Below, piece by piece: positions 1 to 47,245 of a DNA stretch of 64,000 bases (within the stretch, counting starts at the first letter, position 1; every line of letters begins with the position of its first letter). The position numbers and the translations under genes are program-made. Under the pieces are notes generated by a model, which was given only the letters and a program-made list of their open reading frames with translations, made no database searches and was not told where the DNA came from. Source of the stretch: Streptomyces lienomycini (GTDB taxonomy: Bacteria; Actinomycetota; Actinomycetes; Streptomycetales; Streptomycetaceae); the NCBI RefSeq assembly GCF_027947595.1, contig NZ_CP116257.1:7748001-7812000 (forward strand), given 5' to 3'.

Positions 1-262
1 AGACGACCGCCGGCTGGGTGGGTATGCGCGCCGGGGCGATCTCGAAGTGATCGCGGACGTGGGCGGCGCAGTGGGCGATGACTGCCTCCTCCAGGTGCGT
101 CGGGACCTCGACGTAGTCGCTCTTGCGCAGCGTTTCGTCGATGACGCCCTGGTAGGTGCGCGGGCGGGCGGTGTGGTTCTTCACGTGGTCCATCAGCGCT
201 CCGCAGAGGCTGACGGGGATGGCGCTCTCTACGACGAGCGGTAAGCGGCTCTTCCAGGTCAT
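1..262 (-). CDS. Possible 2OG-Fe(II) oxygenase, N-terminal part (partial)
   Basis: The visible N-terminus begins MTWKSRLPLVVESAIP at an ATG whose first bases form an ATGA overlap with the stop of the upstream CysRS-like gene, so it is translationally coupled and the last visible gene of the leftward operon. The 87 visible residues, with a hydrophobic first strand, a helix containing LCGALMDHV and a following R.YQGVIDETLRKS stretch, resemble the start of prolyl-4-hydroxylase-type 2OG-Fe(II) oxygenases. The HxD...H iron ligands would lie beyond the window edge. The family call is therefore tentative; the existence of the gene is well supported by the overlap and by GC-rich third positions. Confidence 0.5.
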   Translation of the reverse strand, partial: MTWKSRLPLVVESAIPVSLCGALMDHVKNHTARPRTYQGVIDETLRKSDYVEVPTHLEEAVIAHCAAHVRDHFEIAPARIPTQPAVV

Positions 263-1635
263 GAGGTGGTCTCCTTCCACCAACGGGTGCCTTCGGGCGA
301 GTCCTCAAGGACGACGCCCTGCTGGGTGAGCTGTTCACGGATCGCGTCGGCCTCGGCGAACTTCTTCGCCGCGCGGAGCCGGTCGCGTTCCTTCACGAGT
401 TCGTCGACGGCGGCGTCGCTCTGGGCGGCGCCGGGGATGTCGAACGTTCCGAAGAGGTTGTTCACGTCCTCGATCAGCCGCAGAGCGGCCGGGCCGGCCG
501 GCTCCTCCATGCGGTTCTGCTCGCGGATGTACTGGAACAGGACGGCGAGGGCACCGGGGGTGTCGAAGTCGTCGTCCAGGCGCTCGCGCATCTCCTTCCA
601 GGCGTCCGTCGCGCGTGCGGCGTTCGCCGGGCTGTCGGTGTGCGCGGGGTCGATGGTCCGGGCGAAGTTCTCGATCCGGCGGCGTGCCCCTCGGGCCTGC
701 TCCAGGGTGGAGTCGTTCAGCTCCATGGAGGAGCGGTAGTGCTGGGAGAGAAAGGCGTGCCGCAGGGTGCGGAAGTCCGTCCGGGCGAGGGCGTCGCGGA
801 TGGTGAGGAAGTTGCCGGTGCTCTTCGACATCTTCTCGCCGTCGACCCGCAGCAGACCGGTGTGCATCCAGTAGCGGGCCAGCGGCTCGATGCCGGAGGC
901 GGCTTCCATCTGGGCGACCTCGGCCTCGTGGTGCGGGAAGATGAGGTCGACGGCGCCGCCGTGCAGGTCGTACGAGGGCCCGAAGAAGGTCTCCGTGATC
1001 GCGGTGTCCTCGATGTGCCAGCCCGGCCGGCCCGGGCCCAGGTCGGTCTCCCAGAACGGCTCGCCGTCCTTGCGGCCCTTCCACAGGGCGAAGTCGCCCG
1101 GGTTGCGCTTCTTCGAGTTGTCGTCGATCCGCGAAACCGAGTCCTCGGGGCGCAGGTCGGTGCGGCCGGAGAGCTTGCCGTACGCGGGGAACGAGGCCAG
1201 GTCGAAGTACCAGCCGTCGTCGAGCTGGTAGGCGTGGCCGCGCTCGATCAGCCTCTTGATCTGGTCCACGATCGCGTCGATGTGGTCGTGGGCTCGCGCG
1301 TGGACATCGACGCGGGTGTTCCCCAGCGCGGCCATGTCCTCCAGGTACTGCTTCTCGAAGAGGGCCGCGATCTCCTCCGGCGGGACGTCCTCCTCCGCCG
1401 ACCGCCGGATGATCTTGTCATCGACGTCGGTGATGTTCTGGAGGTACGTGACCTTGTACCCGCTCGCCTCCAGGTACCGGGCGATGAAGTCGAACTGCGT
1501 GTACGTCTTCGCGTGCCCGACGTGGCTGGGGCCGTACACGGTGGGTCCGCACACGAACATCCGCACCTCGGCCTCCCGCTCGGGGCGGAACTCCTCGGTC
1601 TGGCCGGTCAGCGTGTTGTGGACCTTGATCGACAT
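259..1635 (-). CDS. Orphan cysteinyl-tRNA synthetase-like class I ligase
   Basis: The protein (458 aa) has the complete class I catalytic layout: the HIGH-like box PSHVGH near residues 36-41 after the CGPTVYG strand (Cys29, a zinc ligand position in CysRS), PHHEAE for the other zinc ligands, and GEKMSKSTGNF near residue 268. Known CysRS enzymes activate cysteine with ATP and charge tRNA-Cys. It differs strongly from what I recall of the housekeeping Streptomyces CysS and from MshC, and the zinc-ligand cysteine expected in GWHIEC is Asp210 (GWHIED). It sits in an operon with an NTase and an ATP-grasp ligase, so it may supply activated cysteine to a pathway or replace CysS under inhibition. The ATG at 1635 is preferred over 1638 because AGGAGG lies only one base from the latter. 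CysRS fold is sure; role is not. Confidence 0.85.
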   Translation of the reverse strand: MSIKVHNTLTGQTEEFRPEREAEVRMFVCGPTVYGPSHVGHAKTYTQFDFIARYLEASGYKVTYLQNITDVDDKIIRRSAEEDVPPEEIAALFEKQYLEDMAALGNTRVDVHARAHDHIDAIVDQIKRLIERGHAYQLDDGWYFDLASFPAYGKLSGRTDLRPEDSVSRIDDNSKKRNPGDFALWKGRKDGEPFWETDLGPGRPGWHIEDTAITETFFGPSYDLHGGAVDLIFPHHEAEVAQMEAASGIEPLARYWMHTGLLRVDGEKMSKSTGNFLTIRDALARTDFRTLRHAFLSQHYRSSMELNDSTLEQARGARRRIENFARTIDPAHTDSPANAARATDAWKEMRERLDDDFDTPGALAVLFQYIREQNRMEEPAGPAALRLIEDVNNLFGTFDIPGAAQSDAAVDELVKERDRLRAAKKFAEADAIREQLTQQGVVLEDSPEGTRWWKETTS

Positions 1636-1689
1636 CATGCCTCCTGTGTAAGCGGATCACGCAGCGTACTGACGCCCGGACATAAGCGT

Positions 1690-2619
1690 CTAACTGGAAC
1701 CGCCGCGCTCGCCGAAGGGGACGAATCGCGGGGACGGCAGCGTGGCGAAGACCGACGCCTCCCCCCCGAGCAGGTGGTGGTTGGCCTGCTGGTACGCCTT
1801 CCGCACGGCCTCGATCGCCCTGGGGCTGAGGTCCATCCCGACCACGCGACAGAACTCGCTCAGGGCCTCGCACCGCCGCTCCAGGTCGACCATCGACAGC
1901 GGGTCGCACTGCTGGGCCTCGATCAGCAGGTTCTCCTGCTCGCCGCTGATCAGGCCGAGCGCGCCGAGGGAGTACAGCTTCCACTTCATGTTCGGCAGCA
2001 GCTGGCCCGAGCGGGCGTACATCCAGTCCACGACCTCGTCCAGCGCCCCGGAGAGGACGAAGTGGCCCGTGGGCACTCCGACCCTCCGCGCCATGCGCAG
2101 CGGGATCTCGCGCACGTCCCAGGTGAGCCGGTTGTGCAGCCGGTGGGTCTCGCCCTCCAGGCGCTGGAGCTGCTCACGCGTCTTGTGGGAGATCAGTGCC
2201 GCGAAGGCTTCCTCGCGGTCGAACAGCGGCTCGCCCTTGTTCCCGTAGGCGTCGCACTTGTCGCTGTTCCACGTCGTGCGGGGGTCGGCCTCGTACTGGA
2301 AGAGGAGCTGGTGGACGTTGACCTCCATGCGTCCCCAGGGAACCGGCAGGTGGAAGCTGAACTCCGGGATCCAGGCGGGGAGCCGGTCGCGGACCAGGGC
2401 GTACGTGTCCGCCGGCCGCGACCTCCACTCGTCCTCCTTGATCGGGACATCGAGGATGACGGCCAGGTCGAAGTCGGAATCGGTGCTGAACCGGGTGACG
2501 TTGCGGGGCGCGACCGCCGAGGAGGACAGGACGTAGAGCGCCTGGACCTCGGGCATCGTCTTGAGCGTGTCGAGCAGACCTCCGGCCGCGGCGCGGGCCT
2601 GCATTCTCAGGTTTTCCAC
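1690..2619 (-). CDS. Nucleotidyltransferase-fold protein
   Basis: The 309-aa protein carries a nucleotidyltransferase signature near residues 32-55: LSSSAV followed by STDSDFDLAVIL, the G/S-S ... DxD metal-binding motif, and a later acidic strand (RMEVNVHQ near residue 110) that could provide the third carboxylate. The helical C-terminal part resembles substrate-binding domains of aminoglycoside nucleotidyltransferases and MNT-like proteins. Start is GTG with AAGGAG five to six bases upstream. It lies 13 bp downstream of the ATP-grasp gene and about 50 bp upstream of the CysRS-like gene on the same strand. It may adenylylate a small molecule, tRNA or protein partner; the substrate cannot be read from the sequence. 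Confidence 0.65.
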   Translation of the reverse strand: MENLRMQARAAAGGLLDTLKTMPEVQALYVLSSSAVAPRNVTRFSTDSDFDLAVILDVPIKEDEWRSRPADTYALVRDRLPAWIPEFSFHLPVPWGRMEVNVHQLLFQYEADPRTTWNSDKCDAYGNKGEPLFDREEAFAALISHKTREQLQRLEGETHRLHNRLTWDVREIPLRMARRVGVPTGHFVLSGALDEVVDWMYARSGQLLPNMKWKLYSLGALGLISGEQENLLIEAQQCDPLSMVDLERRCEALSEFCRVVGMDLSPRAIEAVRKAYQQANHHLLGGEASVFATLPSPRFVPFGERGGSS

Positions 2620-2632
2620 GGGAACTCCTTGG

Positions 2633-3754
2633 TCAGATGATCGGGCGATCCATCACGGAGCGGAGCGCGGGAACGAGCTCCAGCGCGACGCCGCCGTGGG
2701 TGCGCTGGATGTGTGCGAGGGAAGGGCTGCTGTTGCCCTCGATGACCACGGGTCCGCCGGGCGTCAGCGCGATGTCCCAGCCGATGAAGGGCACCTGCGG
2801 GAACAGGCGGGCACAGCGCTCGGCCAGCTCTCGGACCTCCGCCATGCGGGAGATCCGGTGGTCGGCGAACAGCACCGAACTGACCTCGTGGCGGGTGTGG
2901 GCATTCAGGTACCGGTCGTACCCGTGACGGTCGAGCCTTCCGTCCGGATGAACACGGATCTGCATGCCGCCGGCGGCCGAGTTGTCCGTGGTGCTATCGG
3001 CGCCGCCGAGCTTCAACATCACGTACAGAACCTCGGCGGCACCATCGCGCAGCAGGGTGATCACGCGGAACGTGTTGAGGGCGTACGGGTTCAGCATGTC
3101 CAGGTCGGGATGCTGGGGTACGTGCTGCTCCACCAGCCACGTGCCCCACCGCTGCGCGTAGGCCGCAAGGTCGAAGGCGTCCTCGCCAGGCCGCACGATC
3201 ACGACGCCGGACCCACCGCTGGAGTAGCGGGAGGGCTTGACCACCATGCGGCCGAGTCCGGAAGCGTGGTCGAAGACCTCCGTCAGCGGCACCACATCGC
3301 CAGCGGACGTCACACCCGTGCGACGGTCACCGCTTGCGATGAGCGCGGGCTGCGGGATGCCTGCGGACGCGAGGATCCTCTTGCAGGACGACTTGTCGTC
3401 CAGGTCGATCGCGTCCCGGTTCACGCGGGGAAGGAGCCGGTGGAAGAGGGCGCTCTCCGGCAGGTACGAGCAGGCCCGCTCGGAGGACACCTCGCGCCGG
3501 TATCCGCCGTAGCGGAAGTAGTGGAACGGCAGGCAGCGCCACCGCGCGGAGACCTTCACCAAGTCGCCGGCGATGCGGGCCAGGCTCTTCCTGTCCTCGT
3601 CGAGCAGCATCGCGGGAAGGTGCTCGCTCCGCAGTTGCCGCACCTGGTAAGGGAGAAACCGCGCGCCGGACACGCGGGGAAGGACCTGGGTGCGGAACCA
3701 CTCCTCTGTCACGGCTTGGCGGTGGTTGAAGCCGCGGTTCGCGGTATGTCTCAT
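2633..3754 (-). CDS. ATP-grasp ligase (sugar-transfer-associated type)
   Basis: At 373 aa it shows the ATP-grasp core: VVKPSRYSSGGSGV (nucleotide-binding lysine and glycine loop, about residues 172-185), LNTFRVITLL, and the metal-binding C-terminal motif FIGWDIALTPGGPVVIEGNSS (about residues 325-345). This pattern fits the family annotated as sugar-transfer-associated ATP-grasp. ATP-grasp enzymes join a carboxylate to an amine or thiol through an acyl-phosphate. GGGAGGAG precedes the ATG by about four bases. It is the first larger gene of the leftward operon, 17 bp after a 29-codon ORF. A role in amide ligation with the neighbouring CysRS-like and NTase proteins is inference. Confidence 0.8.
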   Translation of the reverse strand: MRHTANRGFNHRQAVTEEWFRTQVLPRVSGARFLPYQVRQLRSEHLPAMLLDEDRKSLARIAGDLVKVSARWRCLPFHYFRYGGYRREVSSERACSYLPESALFHRLLPRVNRDAIDLDDKSSCKRILASAGIPQPALIASGDRRTGVTSAGDVVPLTEVFDHASGLGRMVVKPSRYSSGGSGVVIVRPGEDAFDLAAYAQRWGTWLVEQHVPQHPDLDMLNPYALNTFRVITLLRDGAAEVLYVMLKLGGADSTTDNSAAGGMQIRVHPDGRLDRHGYDRYLNAHTRHEVSSVLFADHRISRMAEVRELAERCARLFPQVPFIGWDIALTPGGPVVIEGNSSPSLAHIQRTHGGVALELVPALRSVMDRPII

Positions 3755-3771
3755 GGTGCTCCTCCCGTTTC

Positions 3772-3861
3772 TCAGCGGTTCGGGGTTCCGGCGATGGCCA
3801 ACGTGACGACGAGCGCGGTGACGGCGATCACGTAGGCCACGACAGCGAGGCGCTGCCTCAT
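3772..3861 (-). CDS. 29-aa hydrophobic peptide
   Basis: This ORF is short: MRQRLAVVAYVIAVTALV followed by a hydrophobic run and TPNR. It has a basic N-terminus and a single strongly hydrophobic helix, so it would sit in the membrane or be exported. Its ATG overlaps the TGA of the preceding 67-aa ORF (ATGA), and the ATP-grasp gene starts 17 bp later, which is strong evidence for translation. It has no family I recognise. It could be a membrane anchor, a toxin-like peptide, or a peptide signal for the divergent HTH-TPR regulator; none is shown. Confidence 0.6.
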   Translation of the reverse strand: MRQRLAVVAYVIAVTALVVTLAIAGTPNR

Positions 3862-4061
3862 CGGGCGGGCCCGATGTTGTTGGCGGCGGTGGACCAGGCG
3901 ATGCCGTTCGCGGGCTGGATGTAGGCGATGCGGATGAGCCGGCCGCCGTGCCTCTCGTGGACGACTTCGGTCAGCTCTCCTTCACCGCGGCTCGCGATAT
4001 CGCGGACCAGGCAGTGAAGGAGGGGATGGTCCTCCCGGCCTTCGGCATCGACCGGATTCAC
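3858..4061 (-). CDS. 67-aa small hypothetical protein
   Basis: Starting at a GTG that overlaps the stop of the 54-aa ORF (GTGA), it reads VNPVDAEGREDHPLL and continues with LVRDIASRGEGELTEVV and RIAYIQPANGIAWST. A longer reading from 4112 is possible, but the overlap argues for 4061. The compact beta-rich pattern with conserved-looking tryptophan and tyrosine suggests a folded small domain. Similar small proteins are, from memory, frequent next to HTH-TPR regulators in Streptomyces, but I do not know a function. Confidence 0.6.
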   Translation of the reverse strand: MNPVDAEGREDHPLLHCLVRDIASRGEGELTEVVHERHGGRLIRIAYIQPANGIAWSTAANNIGPAR

Positions 4062-4222
4062 CGCTCGGACTCCTCGCGGTCGCTCGCTCCGCGCCGGAGG
4101 AATCTCTCCCACCCGGACTCGGCGCGGGCACGGAGAGCCGGACTCGGACCGGCCGGCGGCTCGGGAACCGTGTGCTGTCGTCCGCTGTCGCCGGGCGTAC
4201 GGACGGGCAGAGGCTGGCTCAT
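4058..4222 (-). CDS. 54-aa small hypothetical protein, first gene of operon
   Basis: The ORF begins MSQPLPVRTPGD and ends REESER. The ATG at 4222 is chosen because GAGGAGA lies at the correct distance upstream; an in-frame upstream ATG at 4258 lacks a ribosome binding site. It is polar, proline-rich at the start and Arg/Glu-rich at the end, with no recognised domain. Its stop overlaps the GTG of the next ORF, which makes three successive 4-bp overlaps or close junctions into the ATP-grasp operon. Confidence 0.5.
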   Translation of the reverse strand: MSQPLPVRTPGDSGRQHTVPEPPAGPSPALRARAESGWERFLRRGASDREESER

Positions 4223-4480: not shown

Positions 4481-5821
4481 ATGTCTGACCCGATGGCCCT
4501 GCACCCGCTGACCTACGTGCGAGAAGGCAAGGGCTGGGGTAAAGCCGAGTTAGCCCGGCTCATGCGCGAACGCGGGGCCGAGCTGGGCGTACCACTGGCC
4601 ACCAACCGGACGACGGTCTGGAAGTGGGAGCAGGGACAGGCACCTGACGCGGACGCGCAACGGGTACTCGCCGACCTCCTGGGCGTCCCCGAGGAACACG
4701 TACGCTCGGTGCCTTGGCCCCGATGGCTGCCAGCCTGGGAATCCACAGCCCTCGCGGCCCCGTGGACTCCGGCCGGCACCGTGAAGGTATTCGCCGATCT
4801 GGTCAGGAGCGGTCACATGGACCGACGGGGATTCCTGTCCATCACCGGCGTCGCGCTGACGGGAGTAGCCGCCAACTGGGCAGCCGCACCAGAGGCGTTC
4901 GCCTCGGCAATCGACGGCGACCGCGTCACCGACGCGATGGTGACCACCATCGAAGCGCGCGTGGACACCCTCCGCACCCTCGACGACCAGATGGGCGGCG
5001 CCCGCCTCCTGGACCAGGCCACCAGCGACCTCGCACTGATCACCAGCCTTCTTGACCACGGGCGCTACACCGACGCCATCGAACACCGCCTGTACGCCAC
5101 GGCCGCCCGTGTGTCCTACCTCGCCGGATGGATGGCCTACGACAAGGGCCTCCGCTCCCTCGGCCAGCGCTACTACGTCGGCGCCCTCCGCAGCGCCCAC
5201 AGCGCGAAGGACGACGGCTTCGGCGCCTTCATCCTGGCCGAGATGGGCGTCCACATCTCCGACTCCGGCGACACGGCCGCACGCGTGAAGCTGATCGACA
5301 CCGCCATCGGCAACGCCCCCTCGGCCCTCCCCCCGGCGGCGACCTCGTACCTCCACCTCCACCAGGCCGAAGCCCTCTCCCGGGACACCCAGCACGAAGC
5401 AGCCGGCAAGTCCCTCAACCGCGCCTACGACCTGTGGGGAACCCACCGCGAAGGCGACCGCCCCGACTGGCTCGGCTGGTATGGCGAGGCCCAACTCAAG
5501 TCGACCGAGGGCAAGATCATGCTGCGCTCCGGCTTCCCCGAGCGAGCCACCAGCGCCCTCGCCGTCGCGGTAGACCAAGCGGTCCCCCGCGACCGTGCCG
5601 TACGCTCCGGCCGCCTCGCCACCGCACGCCTGGCAGCCCGGGACCTGGATGGCGCCCTGGACGCCGCGAACGTCGGTCTGGAGCTGCTGGAGAACCGAGT
5701 CCGCTCCGACCGAGCACACGTCCGACTGACGAAGTTCAGCGACTACCTGGAGCCGCACGCCAGGGTGCCGTCCGTGCGTGAGTTCCGGGACAGGCTGCGG
5801 GCCCTTCCAACAGTCGTCTGA
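4481..5821 (+). CDS. XRE-type HTH regulator with TPR-like C-terminal domain
   Basis: This 446-aa protein has an N-terminal helix-turn-helix (about residues 10-68, with NRTTVWKWEQGQ as recognition region and VLADLLGVPEEHV after it), a linker containing MDRRGFL and a hydrophobic stretch, and an all-helical C-terminal two thirds with repeated Ala/Leu/Arg-rich helices typical of tetratricopeptide-like repeats. Proteins of this layout in Streptomyces control neighbouring biosynthetic or mobile genes. It faces the CysRS/ATP-grasp operon and probably controls it. Codon 24 is TTA (4550-4552), the leucine codon read by the bldA tRNA, so translation may depend on development. Ligand unknown. Confidence 0.8.
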   Translation: MSDPMALHPLTYVREGKGWGKAELARLMRERGAELGVPLATNRTTVWKWEQGQAPDADAQRVLADLLGVPEEHVRSVPWPRWLPAWESTALAAPWTPAGTVKVFADLVRSGHMDRRGFLSITGVALTGVAANWAAAPEAFASAIDGDRVTDAMVTTIEARVDTLRTLDDQMGGARLLDQATSDLALITSLLDHGRYTDAIEHRLYATAARVSYLAGWMAYDKGLRSLGQRYYVGALRSAHSAKDDGFGAFILAEMGVHISDSGDTAARVKLIDTAIGNAPSALPPAATSYLHLHQAEALSRDTQHEAAGKSLNRAYDLWGTHREGDRPDWLGWYGEAQLKSTEGKIMLRSGFPERATSALAVAVDQAVPRDRAVRSGRLATARLAARDLDGALDAANVGLELLENRVRSDRAHVRLTKFSDYLEPHARVPSVREFRDRLRALPTVV

Positions 5822-8652: not shown

Positions 8653-9056
8653 CTCCGGAAGAGATCAACAGCGGCCCCGCTCGGGAGGCCGGTACCCCGG
8701 AGGTTCCCGGTTACCCGGTCCTTCTCCCCGAGGGGGGAGACCCCCGGTTCAGCGAGCGGCTGCTGATGGACGTGCACGCTGTGCTGCGGGCGCACGGGTA
8801 CCCCGAGCTCGGCGATGAGCGGGACCTGGAGCACCTGGAGCTGACGCTCCACTGGTTCCTGTACTCCGAACAGATCAACGAGCGCACTCGCGCACTGTGG
8901 GACCTGATGCGGTCCGCGTCCGACGGGGCGGGGCTGCCACTGGGATCCAAGCGGCGGGCTCTGGCCACCGCACTTCTGGCACGGCTTGAGGCCGGACAGG
9001 ACATCAGGGTGTCCATCGAGGACGTGAAGAAGAAGGATTCGGGGAGGGTTCGATGA
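8649..9056 (+). CDS. Hypothetical element protein (135 aa)
   Basis: Helical protein with HAVLRAHGYPEL and LTLHWFLYSEQINER segments, starting in a 4-bp ATGA overlap and ending in one with the Tra gene. Its C-terminal IRVSIEDVKKK parallels the end of the preceding 81-aa protein. Small proteins at this place in AICEs are often annotated as spread (Spd) or transfer-accessory proteins, but nothing in the sequence proves that role. Confidence 0.6.
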   Translation: MTPEEINSGPAREAGTPEVPGYPVLLPEGGDPRFSERLLMDVHAVLRAHGYPELGDERDLEHLELTLHWFLYSEQINERTRALWDLMRSASDGAGLPLGSKRRALATALLARLEAGQDIRVSIEDVKKKDSGRVR

Positions 9057-10459
9057 ACGTGGAACAGGTCTTCGGCTTGCTACCGGTGGTGCTGGTGATC
9101 TGCGCCGTGCTGCTGACGGCGTGGGCGATGGTCAAGACGGTCCGCTACGTCCAGGCGGACAAGGAGATGCGCCGGAGCATCCGGCAGGCCGTGAAGATCC
9201 GGATGACGTGGACGCGGCTGGCGAAGATGGCCGGGCTGTCGGTCACCGACCGCACCCCGCCCTGGCTGTCCTCCCTCAACACGAGCAAGGGCGCTCCGGA
9301 GCCCAAGCCGCGCGAACTGGTCCCGGTGATCAAGACGCAGCCGGACCAGTACGGAGTGATCGTCCACGTCAAGCTGCTGCCGAAGGTCGGGATCAAGGAA
9401 CTCCAGGACAAGGCCCGGTTCCTGGCCGATGCCTGGGGCTGCGTCCGGGTCGCCGTCGAGGCGGGCAAGCCGGGCCTGGCGACCCTGCGGGCGATCCGTC
9501 GCGACCCGTTGGCCGGCCACATCCAGTACGTGCCGACCGGTGAGCCGCCCGCCGACCTGACGGTGTGGCCGGTCGGCCGGGACGAGTACGGCGCCCCGGT
9601 CCACGTCGAGCTCAAGAACAAGTCGGGGGCGGTGGTCGCGGGTGGTGTCGGCGGCGGCAAGTCCAACCTGCTCACCGCGCTAGTCTCCTACTTCGGGCCG
9701 TCCCCGGCCGTGCAGTTCGCGGTGATCGACGGCAAGGTGTCCGACGCCGCCCATGGTGACTACGCGGACGTGCTGCCCCGTGTGTTCGCGCACGCCGGTC
9801 ATGACCTGCGGGAGGCCAACGCGCTGCTGCGGCGGCTGGTCAAGCTGCTGCACGACCGCGCCACGATGGCCCGGACGGTGCTGGGCACGTCGAACATGTG
9901 GAACGTCGGCCCCAGCGAACAATGGCCACTGGTGTTCGCCGTCATCGACGAGTCGCACACCTTCTTCCACGACCACAAGGGCAGCGACAAGGAGACCCGC
10001 GCACTGGCCGCCCTCGCGGCGGAGAACATCCGCCTGACGGGTCTGCTCGTCAAGGGCGGCCGGTCGGTCGGGATCTACACGGTGCCGGCCACCCAGAAGG
10101 CGACCGGCGACGCCATCCCCACCTCGATCCGGGACGTGTGCAGCGCCGCCCTGTCCTTCTACCAGCGCACCACCGAAGCATCCGTCGCCGCGCTCGGGGA
10201 CGACATCCGCAACTGGCCGGACATGGACCCGATCAACCTCCAGGGATCCCAGTACGTGGGCGTCGCCTCCATGGCAGCCGAAGGACGCCCCGGCTTCGTC
10301 CGCGTCCGCACCCCCTACCTCAACCCCGCCCACGCCGCCGCCGTCGCCAAGCTCACCGCCCACCTCACCCAGGACCCGACCGAACTGCTGGCCAACCTGA
10401 CCCCGCCCAACCTGCGCAAGGACGAGCCTCCGGAGGACGACGCCCCCGCCGCAGCCTGA
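9053..10459 (+). CDS. FtsK/SpoIIIE-type transfer translocase (Tra)
   Basis: A 468-aa protein with one N-terminal membrane segment (about residues 7-25, LLPVVLVICAVLLTAW), a Walker A motif GGVGGGKSNLL near residue 200 and a Walker B strand LVFAVIDESHTFF near residue 300, then SVGIYTVPATQK in the sensor region. This is the TraB/TraSA family: single-protein hexameric pumps that move double-stranded element DNA between mycelial compartments and need no relaxase. It lies between the small operon genes and the DUF2637 gene, as in pSAM2-like elements. Expression is presumably held down by the GntR repressor. Confidence 0.85.
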   Translation: MNVEQVFGLLPVVLVICAVLLTAWAMVKTVRYVQADKEMRRSIRQAVKIRMTWTRLAKMAGLSVTDRTPPWLSSLNTSKGAPEPKPRELVPVIKTQPDQYGVIVHVKLLPKVGIKELQDKARFLADAWGCVRVAVEAGKPGLATLRAIRRDPLAGHIQYVPTGEPPADLTVWPVGRDEYGAPVHVELKNKSGAVVAGGVGGGKSNLLTALVSYFGPSPAVQFAVIDGKVSDAAHGDYADVLPRVFAHAGHDLREANALLRRLVKLLHDRATMARTVLGTSNMWNVGPSEQWPLVFAVIDESHTFFHDHKGSDKETRALAALAAENIRLTGLLVKGGRSVGIYTVPATQKATGDAIPTSIRDVCSAALSFYQRTTEASVAALGDDIRNWPDMDPINLQGSQYVGVASMAAEGRPGFVRVRTPYLNPAHAAAVAKLTAHLTQDPTELLANLTPPNLRKDEPPEDDAPAAA

Positions 10460-11409: not shown

Positions 11410-12879
11410 ATGCCCCGCGACCTCGACCTGCGGCACGTGATCAGCCCCGCTGTCCGGGACCTGATCGAACTGGCCAATCTGGGCGACTTCGACCGCACCC
11501 GCGAGCAGATCACCCGCCTGCGCGGCTGCGCCCGACCGATCAACCTCGTGGGCCACACCCACACCCACAACGCCGCCACCGGTGAAACGATCCGCTCGTA
11601 CTCCACCAGCGACGAACCCACCGGACGCCTGCTGACCCCCTGCGGCAACCGCCGCGCCTCCCGCTGCCCCGCCTGCTCCCGCACCTACGCCGCCGACACC
11701 TACCACCTCGTCCGCGCCGGACTCTGCGGCGGCAAGAACGTCCCCGAAACCGTCCGCACGCACCCCCGCGTGTTCCTCACCCTCACCGCCCCCTCCTTCG
11801 GCCCCGTCCACAACCGACCCACCAACAAGGACGGCACCACCCAGCCCTGCCGCTGCGGCACCCACCACCCCGAGGGAGCCCCCGAACTCGGAACCCCGCT
11901 GGACCCGAAGGCGTACGACTACACCGGCGCCGTGCTGTGGAACGCCCACGCCGGAGCTCTGTGGGCACGCTTCACCCTCAACCTCCGCCGCGCCCTGGCC
12001 GCCCACTTCAACATCACCCAGAAGGACATGAAGCAGCTCCTTCGCGTCTCCTTCGCCAAGGTCGCCGAATACCAGCAGCGCGGCCTGGTCCACTTCCACG
12101 CCGTCGTCCGCTTCGATGGCCCCGACGGCCACACCAGCGCCCCGCCGGCCTGGGCAGGCGTGGACGACCTCACCTACGCCATCCGCGCCGCCGTCCGCCG
12201 CACCGCCCTGACCGTCTCCTCCGACACCGTGGGAGACCAGCAGATCCGCTGGGGCACGATGCTCGACGTGCGGGAGATCACCGCACTCGGCGACGGCGTA
12301 CTCACCGACGCCGCCGTGGCCGGATACGTCGCCAAGTACGCCACCAAGAGCGCCGAGGACTCCGGCACCGTGGACCGGAGCCTGATCTGCCGGACCTGCT
12401 CCGGCCGGGGCACGATTGGCGGACGGGTGAAGGACCTCTGCCCCGACTGCGATGGCACCCGACAGGCCGAACCTCTCCGGGACCTGCCCGTGCACCGGCA
12501 CGTCCGGCAGATGATCCGCACTGCCTGGGACCTGGGCGGCCTGCCCGAATTCGCGGACCTCAAGCTCTGCAAGTGGGCCCACATGCTCGGCTTCCGCGGC
12601 CACTTCTCCACCAAGTCCCGCGCCTACTCCACCACCCTCGGCGCCCTGCGCGACGTCCGCCGCGCCTGGCGGCTCGCCCAGGCCGACGCCGCCCGCGTCC
12701 GCGCCGGCCACCCCGTACCCGCCCCGGACACCGTGCTCGTCACCGAGTCCTCCTGGGCCTACCTCGCCTCTGGCTACCGCCCCGGCGAAGAACTCCTCGC
12801 CAGCCAGACCCGCCACAACATCGACCAGGCCCGCGACGACAAGGAACGGGCCAAGACCGAAGGGGAGGTCTGGCAGTGA
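11410..12879 (+). CDS. repSA: RepSA-type replication initiator
   Basis: At 489 aa it has the features of rolling-circle initiators of pSAM2-type elements: a cysteine-rich N-terminus (CGNRRASRCPACSRTY, CRCGTHH), an HUH-like strand GLVHFHAVVRF near residue 225, a candidate nicking motif GYVAKYATK near residue 307, and a zinc-knuckle CRTCSGRG ... CPDCDGTRQ. Rep nicks the origin and drives replication of the excised element. The ATG is preceded by GGAAAGGA. It overlaps the xis start (GTGA), giving the order rep-xis-int. Confidence 0.85.
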   Translation: MPRDLDLRHVISPAVRDLIELANLGDFDRTREQITRLRGCARPINLVGHTHTHNAATGETIRSYSTSDEPTGRLLTPCGNRRASRCPACSRTYAADTYHLVRAGLCGGKNVPETVRTHPRVFLTLTAPSFGPVHNRPTNKDGTTQPCRCGTHHPEGAPELGTPLDPKAYDYTGAVLWNAHAGALWARFTLNLRRALAAHFNITQKDMKQLLRVSFAKVAEYQQRGLVHFHAVVRFDGPDGHTSAPPAWAGVDDLTYAIRAAVRRTALTVSSDTVGDQQIRWGTMLDVREITALGDGVLTDAAVAGYVAKYATKSAEDSGTVDRSLICRTCSGRGTIGGRVKDLCPDCDGTRQAEPLRDLPVHRHVRQMIRTAWDLGGLPEFADLKLCKWAHMLGFRGHFSTKSRAYSTTLGALRDVRRAWRLAQADAARVRAGHPVPAPDTVLVTESSWAYLASGYRPGEELLASQTRHNIDQARDDKERAKTEGEVWQ

Positions 12880-13073
12880 CTGCCGCACCGACCACCCGCA
12901 TGCTGACCCTGGGGGAGGCCCTGGCAGAGCTGCGCATGTCCCGGGCCGCCTTCTACCGGCTCCGCGCACGTGGAAGCGCGCCCCGCTGCCTCAAGCTCCC
13001 CAACGGTCAGCTCCGCATCCGCCGGACCGACCTCGACGCCTGGTTCAAGGGCTGCGAGGTGCCCGCATGCTGA
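12876..13073 (+). CDS. xis: Excisionase, helix-turn-helix type
   Basis: The 65-aa ORF starts at a GTG overlapping the repSA stop and contains a MerR/HTH_17-type DNA-binding fold: LTLGEALAELRMSRAAFYRLR followed by the wing LPNGQLRIRRTDLDAW (shown in two short pieces). Such proteins bend att DNA and steer the integrase toward excision. The stop lies inside the int start region (7-bp overlap), so the two are translated together. Confidence 0.8.
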   Translation: MTAAPTTRMLTLGEALAELRMSRAAFYRLRARGSAPRCLKLPNGQLRIRRTDLDAWFKGCEVPAC

Positions 13074-14467
13074 CGTACGACGTGAAGATCTGGAGCATCC
13101 GTAAGCGCCCTGACCGCGCTGCCGCCTACCAGCTGCGCTGGCGGGTCGGTGCTCAGCCGTTCTCCAAGAGCTACAAGCTCAAGGCCCAGGCGGATGGCCG
13201 ACGTTCCGAACTGCTCACCGCGCTGCGCAACCGCGAGCAGTTCGACACCGAGACCGGCCTGCCGGCCTCGGAAGTGCTGGCGTCCCAGTCCCCGACGTGG
13301 TTCGCCCACGCTCGGGAGTACGTGGTGATGAAGTGGCCGAACGCCTCGGCCAAGCACCGTGCGAGCATCGCGGACGCCTTGGCCACGGTCACCCCGCGCC
13401 TGGTAAAGGACAACCGAGGGGCACCCGCCCCCCGGGTCCTCCGCGCCGCGCTCTACTCCTGGGCCTTCCGCCTTGTCCTGGACCAGGACGGCGAGCTCGT
13501 GGCCCGCATCGACGCCGAGGAAGCGCCGGAACCCATCGTGGCGGCCCTCGACTGGATCGGACGCAAGTCCGTGGACATCTCGGCCTTGAACACGCCGGCT
13601 GTCGTCCGGTCCGCCCTGGATGCACTTGCCCGCAAGATGGACGGCACTGCTGCGGCGGACAACACGGTGAACCGCAAGGTACCCGTATTTAGTAACTGCC
13701 TCCGCTATGCCGTCGAGTTGGAGCGCCTGCCGTCGCTGCCGCTGGCCAAGGTGGACTGGACTCCGCCCGAGACTGACGACGAGATCGATTTCCGATACGT
13801 GCCTGGCCCAGCTCTCGCCAGGAAGCTGATCGATGCCGTAGAAACACAAGGTGATCGTGGACGGCACCTCAAGGCGTTCTTCGGGTGCATCTACTACGCG
13901 GCAACCCGCCCCGGCGAGGCCGTGACGCTCCGGGAGTCCGACTTCACCCTGCCCGAGGAGGGCTGGGGCCAAGTCGTCCTGTCATCCAGCTCGGCGCGTG
14001 TCGGCTCCGGGTGGACCGATTCCGGCGAGTCGTACGACTCCCGCGGCCTCAAGAAGCGAGCACGTCGGGCTACCCGCGAGGTACCCATTCCCCCGGTCCT
14101 CGTTCGCATGATCCGTGACCACATCAAGGAGTTCGGTACGGCCGAGGACGGACGACTCTTCCGAGCTGTCCGCAGCGGCGGCCTGCTCAGCAAGGAGTAC
14201 GGAGACATCTGGAAGGCCGCCCGCGAAGCCGTCCTCACCGAGCAAGAAGTCAAGACGCCGCTCGCCGAGGTCCCGTACGGACTCCGCGCCGCCTGCGTCT
14301 CCCTCTGGCTGGAGTCCGGCGTCTCCCCGGCCGAGGTCGCCCGCCGCGCAGGCCACAGCATCGCCGTGCTGTTCCGCTTCTACGCCAAGGCCATCCGCCG
14401 CAACCAGCACCACGCCAACCAGCAGATCGAACGGGCGCTGGAAGCCTCTGACGAGGCAGAACAGTAG
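13067..14467 (+). CDS. int: Tyrosine recombinase integrase
   Basis: The 466-aa protein has an N-terminal arm-binding domain, a core-binding region and a C-terminal catalytic domain with Arg281 (ATRPGEA), Arg407 (YGLRAA), His430 (RRAGHS) and nucleophile Tyr439 (FRFYAK). The first His of the classic HxxR box is Tyr, which I recall as common in Streptomyces AICE integrases. It should integrate the element into a tRNA 3' end and, with Xis, excise it. The nearest tRNA, tRNA-Ser(UGA), lies about 1 kb downstream, with one gene in between. Confidence 0.9.
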   Translation: MLTYDVKIWSIRKRPDRAAAYQLRWRVGAQPFSKSYKLKAQADGRRSELLTALRNREQFDTETGLPASEVLASQSPTWFAHAREYVVMKWPNASAKHRASIADALATVTPRLVKDNRGAPAPRVLRAALYSWAFRLVLDQDGELVARIDAEEAPEPIVAALDWIGRKSVDISALNTPAVVRSALDALARKMDGTAAADNTVNRKVPVFSNCLRYAVELERLPSLPLAKVDWTPPETDDEIDFRYVPGPALARKLIDAVETQGDRGRHLKAFFGCIYYAATRPGEAVTLRESDFTLPEEGWGQVVLSSSSARVGSGWTDSGESYDSRGLKKRARRATREVPIPPVLVRMIRDHIKEFGTAEDGRLFRAVRSGGLLSKEYGDIWKAAREAVLTEQEVKTPLAEVPYGLRAACVSLWLESGVSPAEVARRAGHSIAVLFRFYAKAIRRNQHHANQQIERALEASDEAEQ

Positions 14468-15413: not shown

Positions 15414-15439
15414 TGATCAGCACCTTCTCTGACCTGCTG

Positions 15440-15524
15440 CGGTGGGTGTGGGATTTGAACCCACGGTGACTCGCGCCACGACGGTTTTCAAGACCGTTCC
15501 CTTAGGCCGCTCGGGCAACCCACC
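15440..15524 (-). tRNA. tRNA-Ser (UGA anticodon)
   Basis: Reading leftward, GGTGGGT pairs with ACCCACC as acceptor stem with a G discriminator; the D arm, a loop CTTGAAA with anticodon TGA, a long variable arm typical of type II tRNAs and the T arm GTGGGTTCAAATCCCAC follow. CCA is not encoded. It is the likely attB of the integrative element to its left. The 3' end faces the element. Confidence 0.9.
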
Positions 15525-46339: not shown

Positions 46340-47245
46340 ATGAGTCTGCGCCTGAGTACCGTGATCCTTCCGTACCGCCGCTGGCACGAAGGCGGCCGTT
46401 CGACGTGGACGCGGGCCGAGCAGCTCGGCTTCCACACCGCGTACACCTACGACCACCTGTCCTGGCGGAGTTTCCGGGACGGCCCATGGTTCGGCGCCGT
46501 GCCGACACTCACCGCCGCGGCGGCCGTCACCGAGCGGTTGCGTCTGGGCACCCTGGTCACCTCGCCGAACTTCCGGCACCCGGTGACACTCGCCAAGGAG
46601 CTGATCTCCCTCGACGACGTCTCCGGCGGCCGGATCACGCTCGGCATAGGAGCGGGCGGTACCGGATTCGACGCCACGGCACTGGGCCAGGAGCCGTGGA
46701 CGCCGCGCGAGCGGGCCGACAGGTTCGGCGAGTTCGTGCCGCTGCTCGACCGGCTGCTGACGGAGGACGCCGTGTCGTACGAGGGCGACTTCTACTCGGC
46801 ACACGAGGCACGCAACATCCCGGGCTGCGTACAGCGGCCCCGGCTGCCCTTCGCGGTGGCCGCGACCGGCCCCCGGGGCCTGCGGCTCGCCGCGCGGCAC
46901 GGGCAGGCGTGGGTGACCACCGGGGACCCGAAGCTGTTCGAGAGCGGCACCCCCGAGCAGTCGGAACGGGCGTTGCGGGACCAGGCCGACCGGCTGGCCG
47001 ACGCCTGCGCCGCGATCGGCCGCGAGGTGAGTGAGCTGGACAGAATCCTGCTCACCGGCTTCACGCCGGAGCGCAGTCGCCCGCTGGAGTCCGTGGACGC
47101 GTTCGTGGACTTCGCCGGCCGGCATCGGGACCTCGGCTTCACCGAGCTCGTCGTCCACTGGCCGATCGCCGATTCGGACTTCGCCGCCGACGAGAAGCTC
47201 TTCGAGCGGATCGCCATGGAGGCACCGGCACAGCTGGGGGAATGA
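46340..47245 (+). CDS. LLM-class flavin-dependent oxidoreductase
   Basis: 301 aa with the luciferase-like barrel: EQLGFHTAYTYDHLSW at the first strand, RLRLGTLVTSP, GRITLGIGAGGTGFD, PFAVAATGPRGLRLAARH. It would use FMNH2 or F420 to act on an unknown organic substrate. The parS site lies directly upstream. Confidence 0.85.
   Translation: MSLRLSTVILPYRRWHEGGRSTWTRAEQLGFHTAYTYDHLSWRSFRDGPWFGAVPTLTAAAAVTERLRLGTLVTSPNFRHPVTLAKELISLDDVSGGRITLGIGAGGTGFDATALGQEPWTPRERADRFGEFVPLLDRLLTEDAVSYEGDFYSAHEARNIPGCVQRPRLPFAVAATGPRGLRLAARHGQAWVTTGDPKLFESGTPEQSERALRDQADRLADACAAIGREVSELDRILLTGFTPERSRPLESVDAFVDFAGRHRDLGFTELVVHWPIADSDFAADEKLFERIAMEAPAQLGE

Follow-up and report, generated by a model that had tools for sequence, protein, structure and literature searches.

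Why would a Streptomyces chromosome carry a second cysteinyl-tRNA synthetase (CysRS2) packed into an operon with an ATP-grasp ligase, a nucleotidyltransferase (NTase) and a 2-oxoglutarate (2OG)-dependent oxygenase? The question is raised by the left edge of the window analysed here, a stretch of 64,000 nucleotides (G000:C1:7748001-7812000) within a one-contig 7.86-Mb chromosome whose closest relatives are Streptomyces. The explanation that we favour, with a probability of about 0.5, is a mobile and self-contained biosynthesis-plus-immunity cassette, in which the ATP-grasp ligase and the oxygenase would make a product while the NTase and CysRS2 would protect its maker. An earlier note on this DNA had described seven packed or overlapping leftward open reading frames (ORFs) at positions 1-4222, these four enzymes among them, and ORF calls, family scores and a predicted NTase fold bear out that description. 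The operon does lie at those positions, but the gene set extends further left, as the full oxygenase gene spans L005:15262-14693 in the genome. The operon and its divergent neighbor are laid out as follows.

1..262, continuing to L005:14693 (307 bases left of the window), minus strand: 2OG-Fe(II) oxygenase, prolyl-hydroxylase-like, 189 aa (PF13640)
259..1638, minus strand: CysRS2, the second cysteinyl-tRNA synthetase, 459 aa (TIGR00435, residue table, tree)
1690..2619, minus strand: NTase with a predicted ANT/LinB antibiotic-modifying fold, 309 aa (no Pfam family)
2633..3754, minus strand: ATP-grasp (ATPgrasp_ST) ligase, 373 aa (PF14397)
3772..3861, minus strand: pep29, a hydrophobic ORF of 29 aa, its start overlapping the orfB stop (ATGA)
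3858..4061, minus strand: orfB, 67 aa (84 aa if a GTG further upstream is used), its GTG start overlapping the orfA stop
4058..4222, minus strand: orfA, 54 aa (ORF call, locus comparison)
4481..5821, plus strand: NsdA-family regulator, divergent (NF053720, 348 bits, cut-off 75)

From orfB onward, the intergenic gaps are -4, 17, 13, 51, and -4 nt, with ATGA overlaps at two starts, those of pep29 (with orfB) and of the oxygenase (with CysRS2). In part of the related loci, a serine hydrolase gene (PF00144) comes after the operon.

The operon is not a chance assembly, because its four-gene core is found in 17 of 17 distinct loci, one copy being broken (L013), and two comparisons of the four core genes give dN/dS values of 0.11-0.30, a sign of purifying selection. 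With the NTase as query against a single genome for each species, we obtained 10 Streptomyces loci at 84-97% identity, all with the ATP-grasp, NTase, CysRS2, and oxygenase genes in one order. Whole-genome searches brought in more Streptomyces loci and, more distantly related, L026, whose four core proteins are 53-65% identical to those of the window; the corresponding values are 41-69% for L036 and L037 and 45-65% for L038, which belongs to a third genus. Outside Streptomyces, identity spans 41-69%. L027, L029, and L030 were dropped from the count as repeats of L008, L011, and L012, and genes in related loci were called with our own script. The independent lineages are few: two Streptomyces subclades, L026, the L036/L037 group, and L038. 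A decayed second copy of the operon lies at L013:8879-12560, in a strain that also has the intact copy L015.

The NTase served to gather these loci, so an independent count was taken via CysRS2. The operon is present in 11 of the 12 genomes found with CysRS2, and the NTase gene adjoins CysRS2 in those 11. The NTase is present in 8 of 295 Streptomyces genomes, and these 8 are also the ones with CysRS2 (E up to 1e-130), a co-occurrence with P of about 8e-16 if the genomes were independent, which they are not. A family-wide sample (n=297) holds the NTase in 4 genomes and CysRS2 in 5, and in class-wide samples of 394 genomes neither gene turns up in any genome but the window's, with a strict limit for CysRS2 (1e-165). 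The gene set is rare and patchy. These counts also speak to the idea of a dedicated pathway, which the earlier note had staked on conserved neighbors and on the presence of another CysRS in the genome: genes for an amide-ligase-type enzyme, an NTase, and an oxygenase do form a conserved set, and a housekeeping CysRS is separately present in all 12 CysRS2 carrier genomes. CysRS2 is an extra copy, but it does not stand alone here, as the word "orphan" in that note might suggest.

CysRS2 is full length (TIGR00435, residues 4-455, 441.6 bits, cut-off 340). Its identity is 36-37% to the housekeeping CysRS of its own genome and 42.7% to E. coli CysRS; therefore, it is no recent duplicate. In a tree that carries a long-branch warning, and from which only the separateness of the CysRS2 clade is used, the 15 CysRS2 rows form a single clade (100/100), distinct from the 12 housekeeping rows and from the 8 rows of MshC type. 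Judged by its sequence, CysRS2 is a deep paralogue, a variant of the CysRS family.

What sets this variant apart is its zinc site. We compiled a residue table of the 14 operon copies and the best 120 homologues (7 shared, 127 distinct proteins), following in E. coli numbering C28, C209, H234, and E238, which we take to be the zinc ligands of CysRS, and R427, D436, R439, and D451, which we take to recognize the anticodon. The position of Cys209 is Asp (C209D) in 14/14 operon copies and 120/120 best homologues. C28, H234, and E238 are unchanged in every row, so zinc may still bind. The four anticodon residues are likewise unchanged in 14/14 and 120/120, and at W432 every homologue except one has F or Y. 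The HIGH and KMSKS motifs are intact in all 14 operon copies; the first serine of KMSKS is A or G in 55 of the best 120 homologues. Two intact operon copies outside the table (L028 and L031) and one stand-alone copy (L062) have GWHIED and KMSKS too, the two operon copies also retain HIGH, and C209D is present in all 16 intact operon CysRS2. The change is common to a wider clade that includes many CysRS2 relatives at 60-69% identity, among them proteins of Saccharothrix, Promicromonospora, Actinosynnema, and Glycomyces. At position 209, Cys is present in each of the 12 housekeeping CysRS rows and each of the 8 rows of MshC type.

The stand-alone copy belongs to a draft genome, G429, where CysRS2 (L062) has no partner gene within 18 kb. 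Genome-wide searches with alignments of the ATP-grasp, NTase, and oxygenase proteins found none in this draft, while each was found in the control genome G447. L062 nests with the operon-linked CysRS2 of L036 and L037 (96/96). Thus, CysRS2 was kept or acquired without the pathway in one draft genome, which fits an immunity gene and is hard to reconcile with a purely biosynthetic role. An orphan tRNA within the operon is ruled out by the tRNA and Rfam scans: no tRNA-Cys gene is found in any of the 18 sources searched, and Rfam at the gathering threshold returns nothing except one tRNA from 7 loci.

The partner genes point to small-molecule chemistry. The ATP-grasp protein scores 128.1 bits against PF14397 (cut-off 31.4), and its model matches the LysX/ArgX/RimK/Ddl fold of amide ligases, so that family score and fold agree on a carboxylate-amine ligase. 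No Pfam or NCBIfam model matches the NTase near its cut-off, the window protein drawing only three methyltransferase models (E 0.05-0.19); across 23 family members, the strongest matches are to DUF4037 (E 0.026) and to Polbeta (E 0.1), with 3 members matching each, and a PDB search with the NTase profile gives nothing by sequence. Its assignment comes from the predicted fold: the model matches the two-domain fold of the antibiotic nucleotidyltransferases ANT(4') (kanamycin) and LinB over 231-235 aligned residues and shares acidic catalytic residues with them, at an identity of just 8-10% in the alignments; HalB and MNT proteins are weaker fold matches. The oxygenase scores 44.8 bits against PF13640 (cut-off 27) and weakly matches, by sequence, PKHD-type hydroxylases of solved structure; its HHD motif and the distal H and R are conserved in 9/9 rows inspected, L038 among them. 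Two of the more distant loci carry additional enzyme genes. In L038, an MshC-like cysteine ligase gene lies upstream of the ATP-grasp gene, and another ATP-grasp gene, unlike the first, lies between the ATP-grasp and NTase genes (L038:1892-5566); the same genome has a further MshC-scoring gene at G410:C175. In L026, a TauD-type 2OG dioxygenase gene just upstream overlaps the ATP-grasp start (L026:11233-12033). These additions point to biosynthetic accessories.

The operon is also mobile. It lies between two end repeats that enclose 22,345 bp (22.3 kb), together with the following features.

G000:C1:7741149-7741205, 6851-6795 bases left of the window: left end repeat, 56/57 identical to the right one (repeat comparison)
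L005:10338-13353, 4662-1647 bases left of the window, inside the same element: restriction-modification (R-M)-like module of a GIY-YIG/Eco29kI-like nuclease, a C5-methylase, and Vsr
9053..10459, plus strand: TraB-like FtsK/SpoIIIE translocase (PF01580, 25.6 bits, cut-off 24)
11410..12879, plus strand: RepSA replication initiator (PF20199, 508.3 bits)
13067..14467, plus strand: integrase, presumed only from its position (no Pfam family at 0.001)
15437-15493, no strand assigned: right end repeat, 57 bp, the 3' part of tRNA-Ser(TGA) at 15439-15524

Because RepSA and tRNA-overlapping end repeats accompany and enclose the operon, the element is of the pSAM2 type, with the operon as its cargo. It shares RepSA, the FtsK-like translocase, and the tRNA-overlapping end repeats with pSAM2-type elements of actinomycetes and differs from them by its cargo, the CysRS2 operon and the R-M-like module. 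Among the other 16 loci, 8 carry relaxase genes in the flanks that were fetched, and the window's RepSA and TraB were not found in those flanks. The neighbors of L011 are phage-like, with an amidase, an AAA protein, and a nuclease match that falls slightly short of its cut-off, and a Wadjet-like JetABC set (DUF3375, DUF4194, and an SbcC-type ATPase; L012:2-5339) adjoins the operon in L012.

How might such a cassette work? The ATP-grasp ligase would join a carboxylate to an amine to form an amide or peptide bond, and the oxygenase would hydroxylate a building block or the product. The NTase would put a nucleotide on a small molecule, most likely masking it inside the producer or serving as the last tailoring step. 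CysRS2 would be a genuine tRNA-charging CysRS with an altered zinc site, sustaining cysteine decoding while the product inhibits the housekeeping CysRS, that is, a target bypass. As expected of a self-resistance synthetase, a divergent second copy exists beside the housekeeping copy in 12/12 genomes, and it is linked to the putative biosynthetic genes in 11/12 carriers, the exception being G429 (L062). Among the roles that the earlier note had proposed, resistance to a CysRS inhibitor is the best fit for CysRS2. A bolder version can be put forward only tentatively: the cassette makes a natural antibiotic that targets CysRS, with immunity through the rebuilt zinc site (Cys209 to Asp) and through nucleotidylation of the drug, and acts as a chemical addiction and competition module by which carriers kill non-carrier neighbors, with CysRS2 alone spreading as a resistance gene.

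Synthetases that double as immunity factors are known. In the ascamycin acm cluster, AcmD is an extra alanyl-tRNA synthetase with roles in self-resistance and Ala-tRNA supply, encoded in the same cluster as AcmF (PMC12945691). Like the CysRS2 operon, this is a Streptomyces small-molecule cluster with a second synthetase in addition to a canonical copy; it differs in using alanine and sulfamoyl-nucleoside chemistry, and no set of ATP-grasp, ANT-fold NTase, and 2OG genes appears in the available part of its description. In the SB-203208 sbz cluster, SbzA is an extra isoleucyl-tRNA synthetase (IleRS) that serves in self-resistance and as an Ile-tRNA-dependent transferase (PMC12945691 and PMC9113183). 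Here too, a resistance-type synthetase copy is grouped with biosynthetic genes; however, the cluster relies on AMP ligases and carrier proteins rather than ATP-grasp, and SbzA has AMSKA where operon CysRS2 has KMSKS. IleRS2, in which a changed class-I signature motif confers mupirocin hyper-resistance (PMC10485003), likewise adds another type of synthetase for the same amino acid, with an active-site signature change, and it is plasmid-borne in Staphylococcus. The HIGH motif is altered in IleRS2, whereas a zinc ligand is altered in CysRS2, and IleRS2 lacks biosynthetic partners. Aravind et al. 2010 (PMC2922099) described methionyl-tRNA synthetase paralogues that act in peptide synthesis, along with related operons of ATP-grasp enzymes, and the CysRS2-type gene set is not seen in the accessible part of that paper. 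The cassette would belong to a known kind, the synthetase-immunity cluster, and what appears new is the amino acid, cysteine, a ligase free of nonribosomal peptide synthetases, and the mobility.

Against the cassette, tRNA-dependent biosynthesis offers another role for CysRS2, which might supply Cys-tRNA(Cys), or itself transfer from it, to a scaffold built by the ATP-grasp ligase, with resistance perhaps as a second role. SbzA (an IleRS copy used with Ile-tRNA) and AcmD/AcmF are precedents, and the retained tRNA recognition residues and a gene that lies inside the operon and overlaps the oxygenase start agree with it. However, no aminoacyl-tRNA transferase (GNAT/Fem or LanB-like) is among the family matches of the core genes, and no LanB-like ligase family, the mark of the PEARL type, is among the core proteins. 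Moreover, the KMSKS motif altered in SbzA is kept by all 16 intact operon CysRS2, and G429 has CysRS2 without the pathway. We consider this explanation improbable, though less so than the other rivals. The same stand-alone copy, which lacks the ATP-grasp, NTase, and oxygenase genes, also tells against the proposal in the earlier note that CysRS2 activates cysteine for ligation, taken here to mean a tRNA-independent ligase feeding cysteine into the product in the manner of MshC, the mycothiol cysteine ligase. The CysRS fold, the operon position, and MshC itself, a CysRS relative that works in a small-molecule pathway, made this a reasonable idea, and an MshC-like gene does occur in L038. That gene is separate from CysRS2, however, and the window's CysRS2 reaches only 281 bits against the MshC model (cut-off 485.1). 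MshC has no anticodon-binding domain and has Cys at 209, and CysRS2 is the reverse on both, with the PF23493 anticodon domain present and the four tRNA-recognition residues, lost in MshC, kept throughout the residue table; it also groups apart from MshC in the tree. We therefore do not favor an MshC-like role and consider it very unlikely.

The mobile setting suggests a further role, in anti-phage defense or conflict between elements, where the cargo would disturb translation of an invader and CysRS2 would be a spare, protected synthetase. The operon is indeed carried by an integrative element, beside an R-M-like module, relaxase genes lie near other loci, Wadjet-like JetABC lies beside L012, and the NTase fold weakly resembles HalB and MNT proteins. 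However, in PADLOC 2.0, CysRS2, the NTase, and the ATP-grasp ligase match no model and the oxygenase matches only generic 2OG associated models, while the amide ligase, the oxygenase, and the accessory MshC-like, TauD, and second ATP-grasp genes suggest metabolite making; a conflict system is thus, in our estimate, quite unlikely. Little credence is due to the last explanation, in which CysRS2 stands in for the housekeeping CysRS under zinc starvation, in the manner of Zur-regulated CysS paralogues. One zinc ligand is Asp in CysRS2, and CysRS paralogues in Zur regulons have been published; those paralogues, though, keep their zinc-binding residues (PMC2770081). CysRS2, for its part, may still bind zinc through the three ligands that remain. 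No zinc-uptake or COG0523 gene was noticed in the gene lists, in which no dedicated search was made, and a Zur-box-like pattern, itself uncertain, has no match near the operon start. A stand-in role also leaves the ATP-grasp, NTase, and oxygenase genes unexplained.

We know of no natural CysRS inhibitor. In agreement with the earlier note, which knew of no described system with this gene set, none was found among the top matches of the literature searches, where most subscription journals lie outside the coverage: there was no text joining CysRS, ATP-grasp, and gene cluster, no pairing of CysRS with self-resistance, and no CysRS-inhibitor phrase. If the biosynthesis-plus-immunity cassette is real, it points to an antibiotic class against CysRS, and CysRS2 would be a resistance-gene handle for finding more such cassettes or antibiotics. 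CysRS2 is also a natural test of how changes in the CysRS zinc site alter substrate or inhibitor choice.

The small ORFs and regulators upstream vary among loci. The tiny ORFs are ruled out as a general ribosomal peptide precursor: pep29 occurs in 12/17 loci, all from the two Streptomyces subclades, and is not part of the core. The 330 bases upstream of the ATP-grasp gene hold no pep29 counterpart in L026, L037, and L038 and only an unrelated-looking hydrophobic ORF in L036. Full-length relatives of orfB are found in 5 further loci of the window's subclade. The divergent NsdA-family regulator is present in 7/17 loci, which make up that subclade, and L026 has a relative elsewhere in the locus; from its position, the regulator possibly controls the operon. 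In the second Streptomyces subclade (L011, L012, L015, L028, and L031), a HAD hydrolase and a 400-aa XRE-type regulator replace the NsdA-like, orfA, and orfB genes, and 4/5 of these loci also encode a protein of about 149 aa with no Pfam match (L011:6118-8709 and relatives).

Several minor observations concern the surroundings of these genes. No confirmed NTase or CysRS2 relative is found in viral_contigs, and the plasmid collection gives no NTase match. In that collection, cysS-like matches occur in 624 records labelled plasmid, 503 of them Klebsiella and several of them Salmonella records of 82-94 kb; the count is mixed, as some records are chromosome-sized. A DUF4062 gene lies at L005:8314-9432. 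In three loci, a tRNA-Arg(CCT) gene lies 0.4-0.6 kb past the last gene of the operon (L006:14585, L008:14529, and L031:12572) and is possibly the integration site there. Finally, a luciferase-like monooxygenase gene with similar-looking fragments upstream was seen by eye at L036:3888-6042, and a relative of it, also noted by eye, lies at 46340-47245 of the window, distant from the operon.

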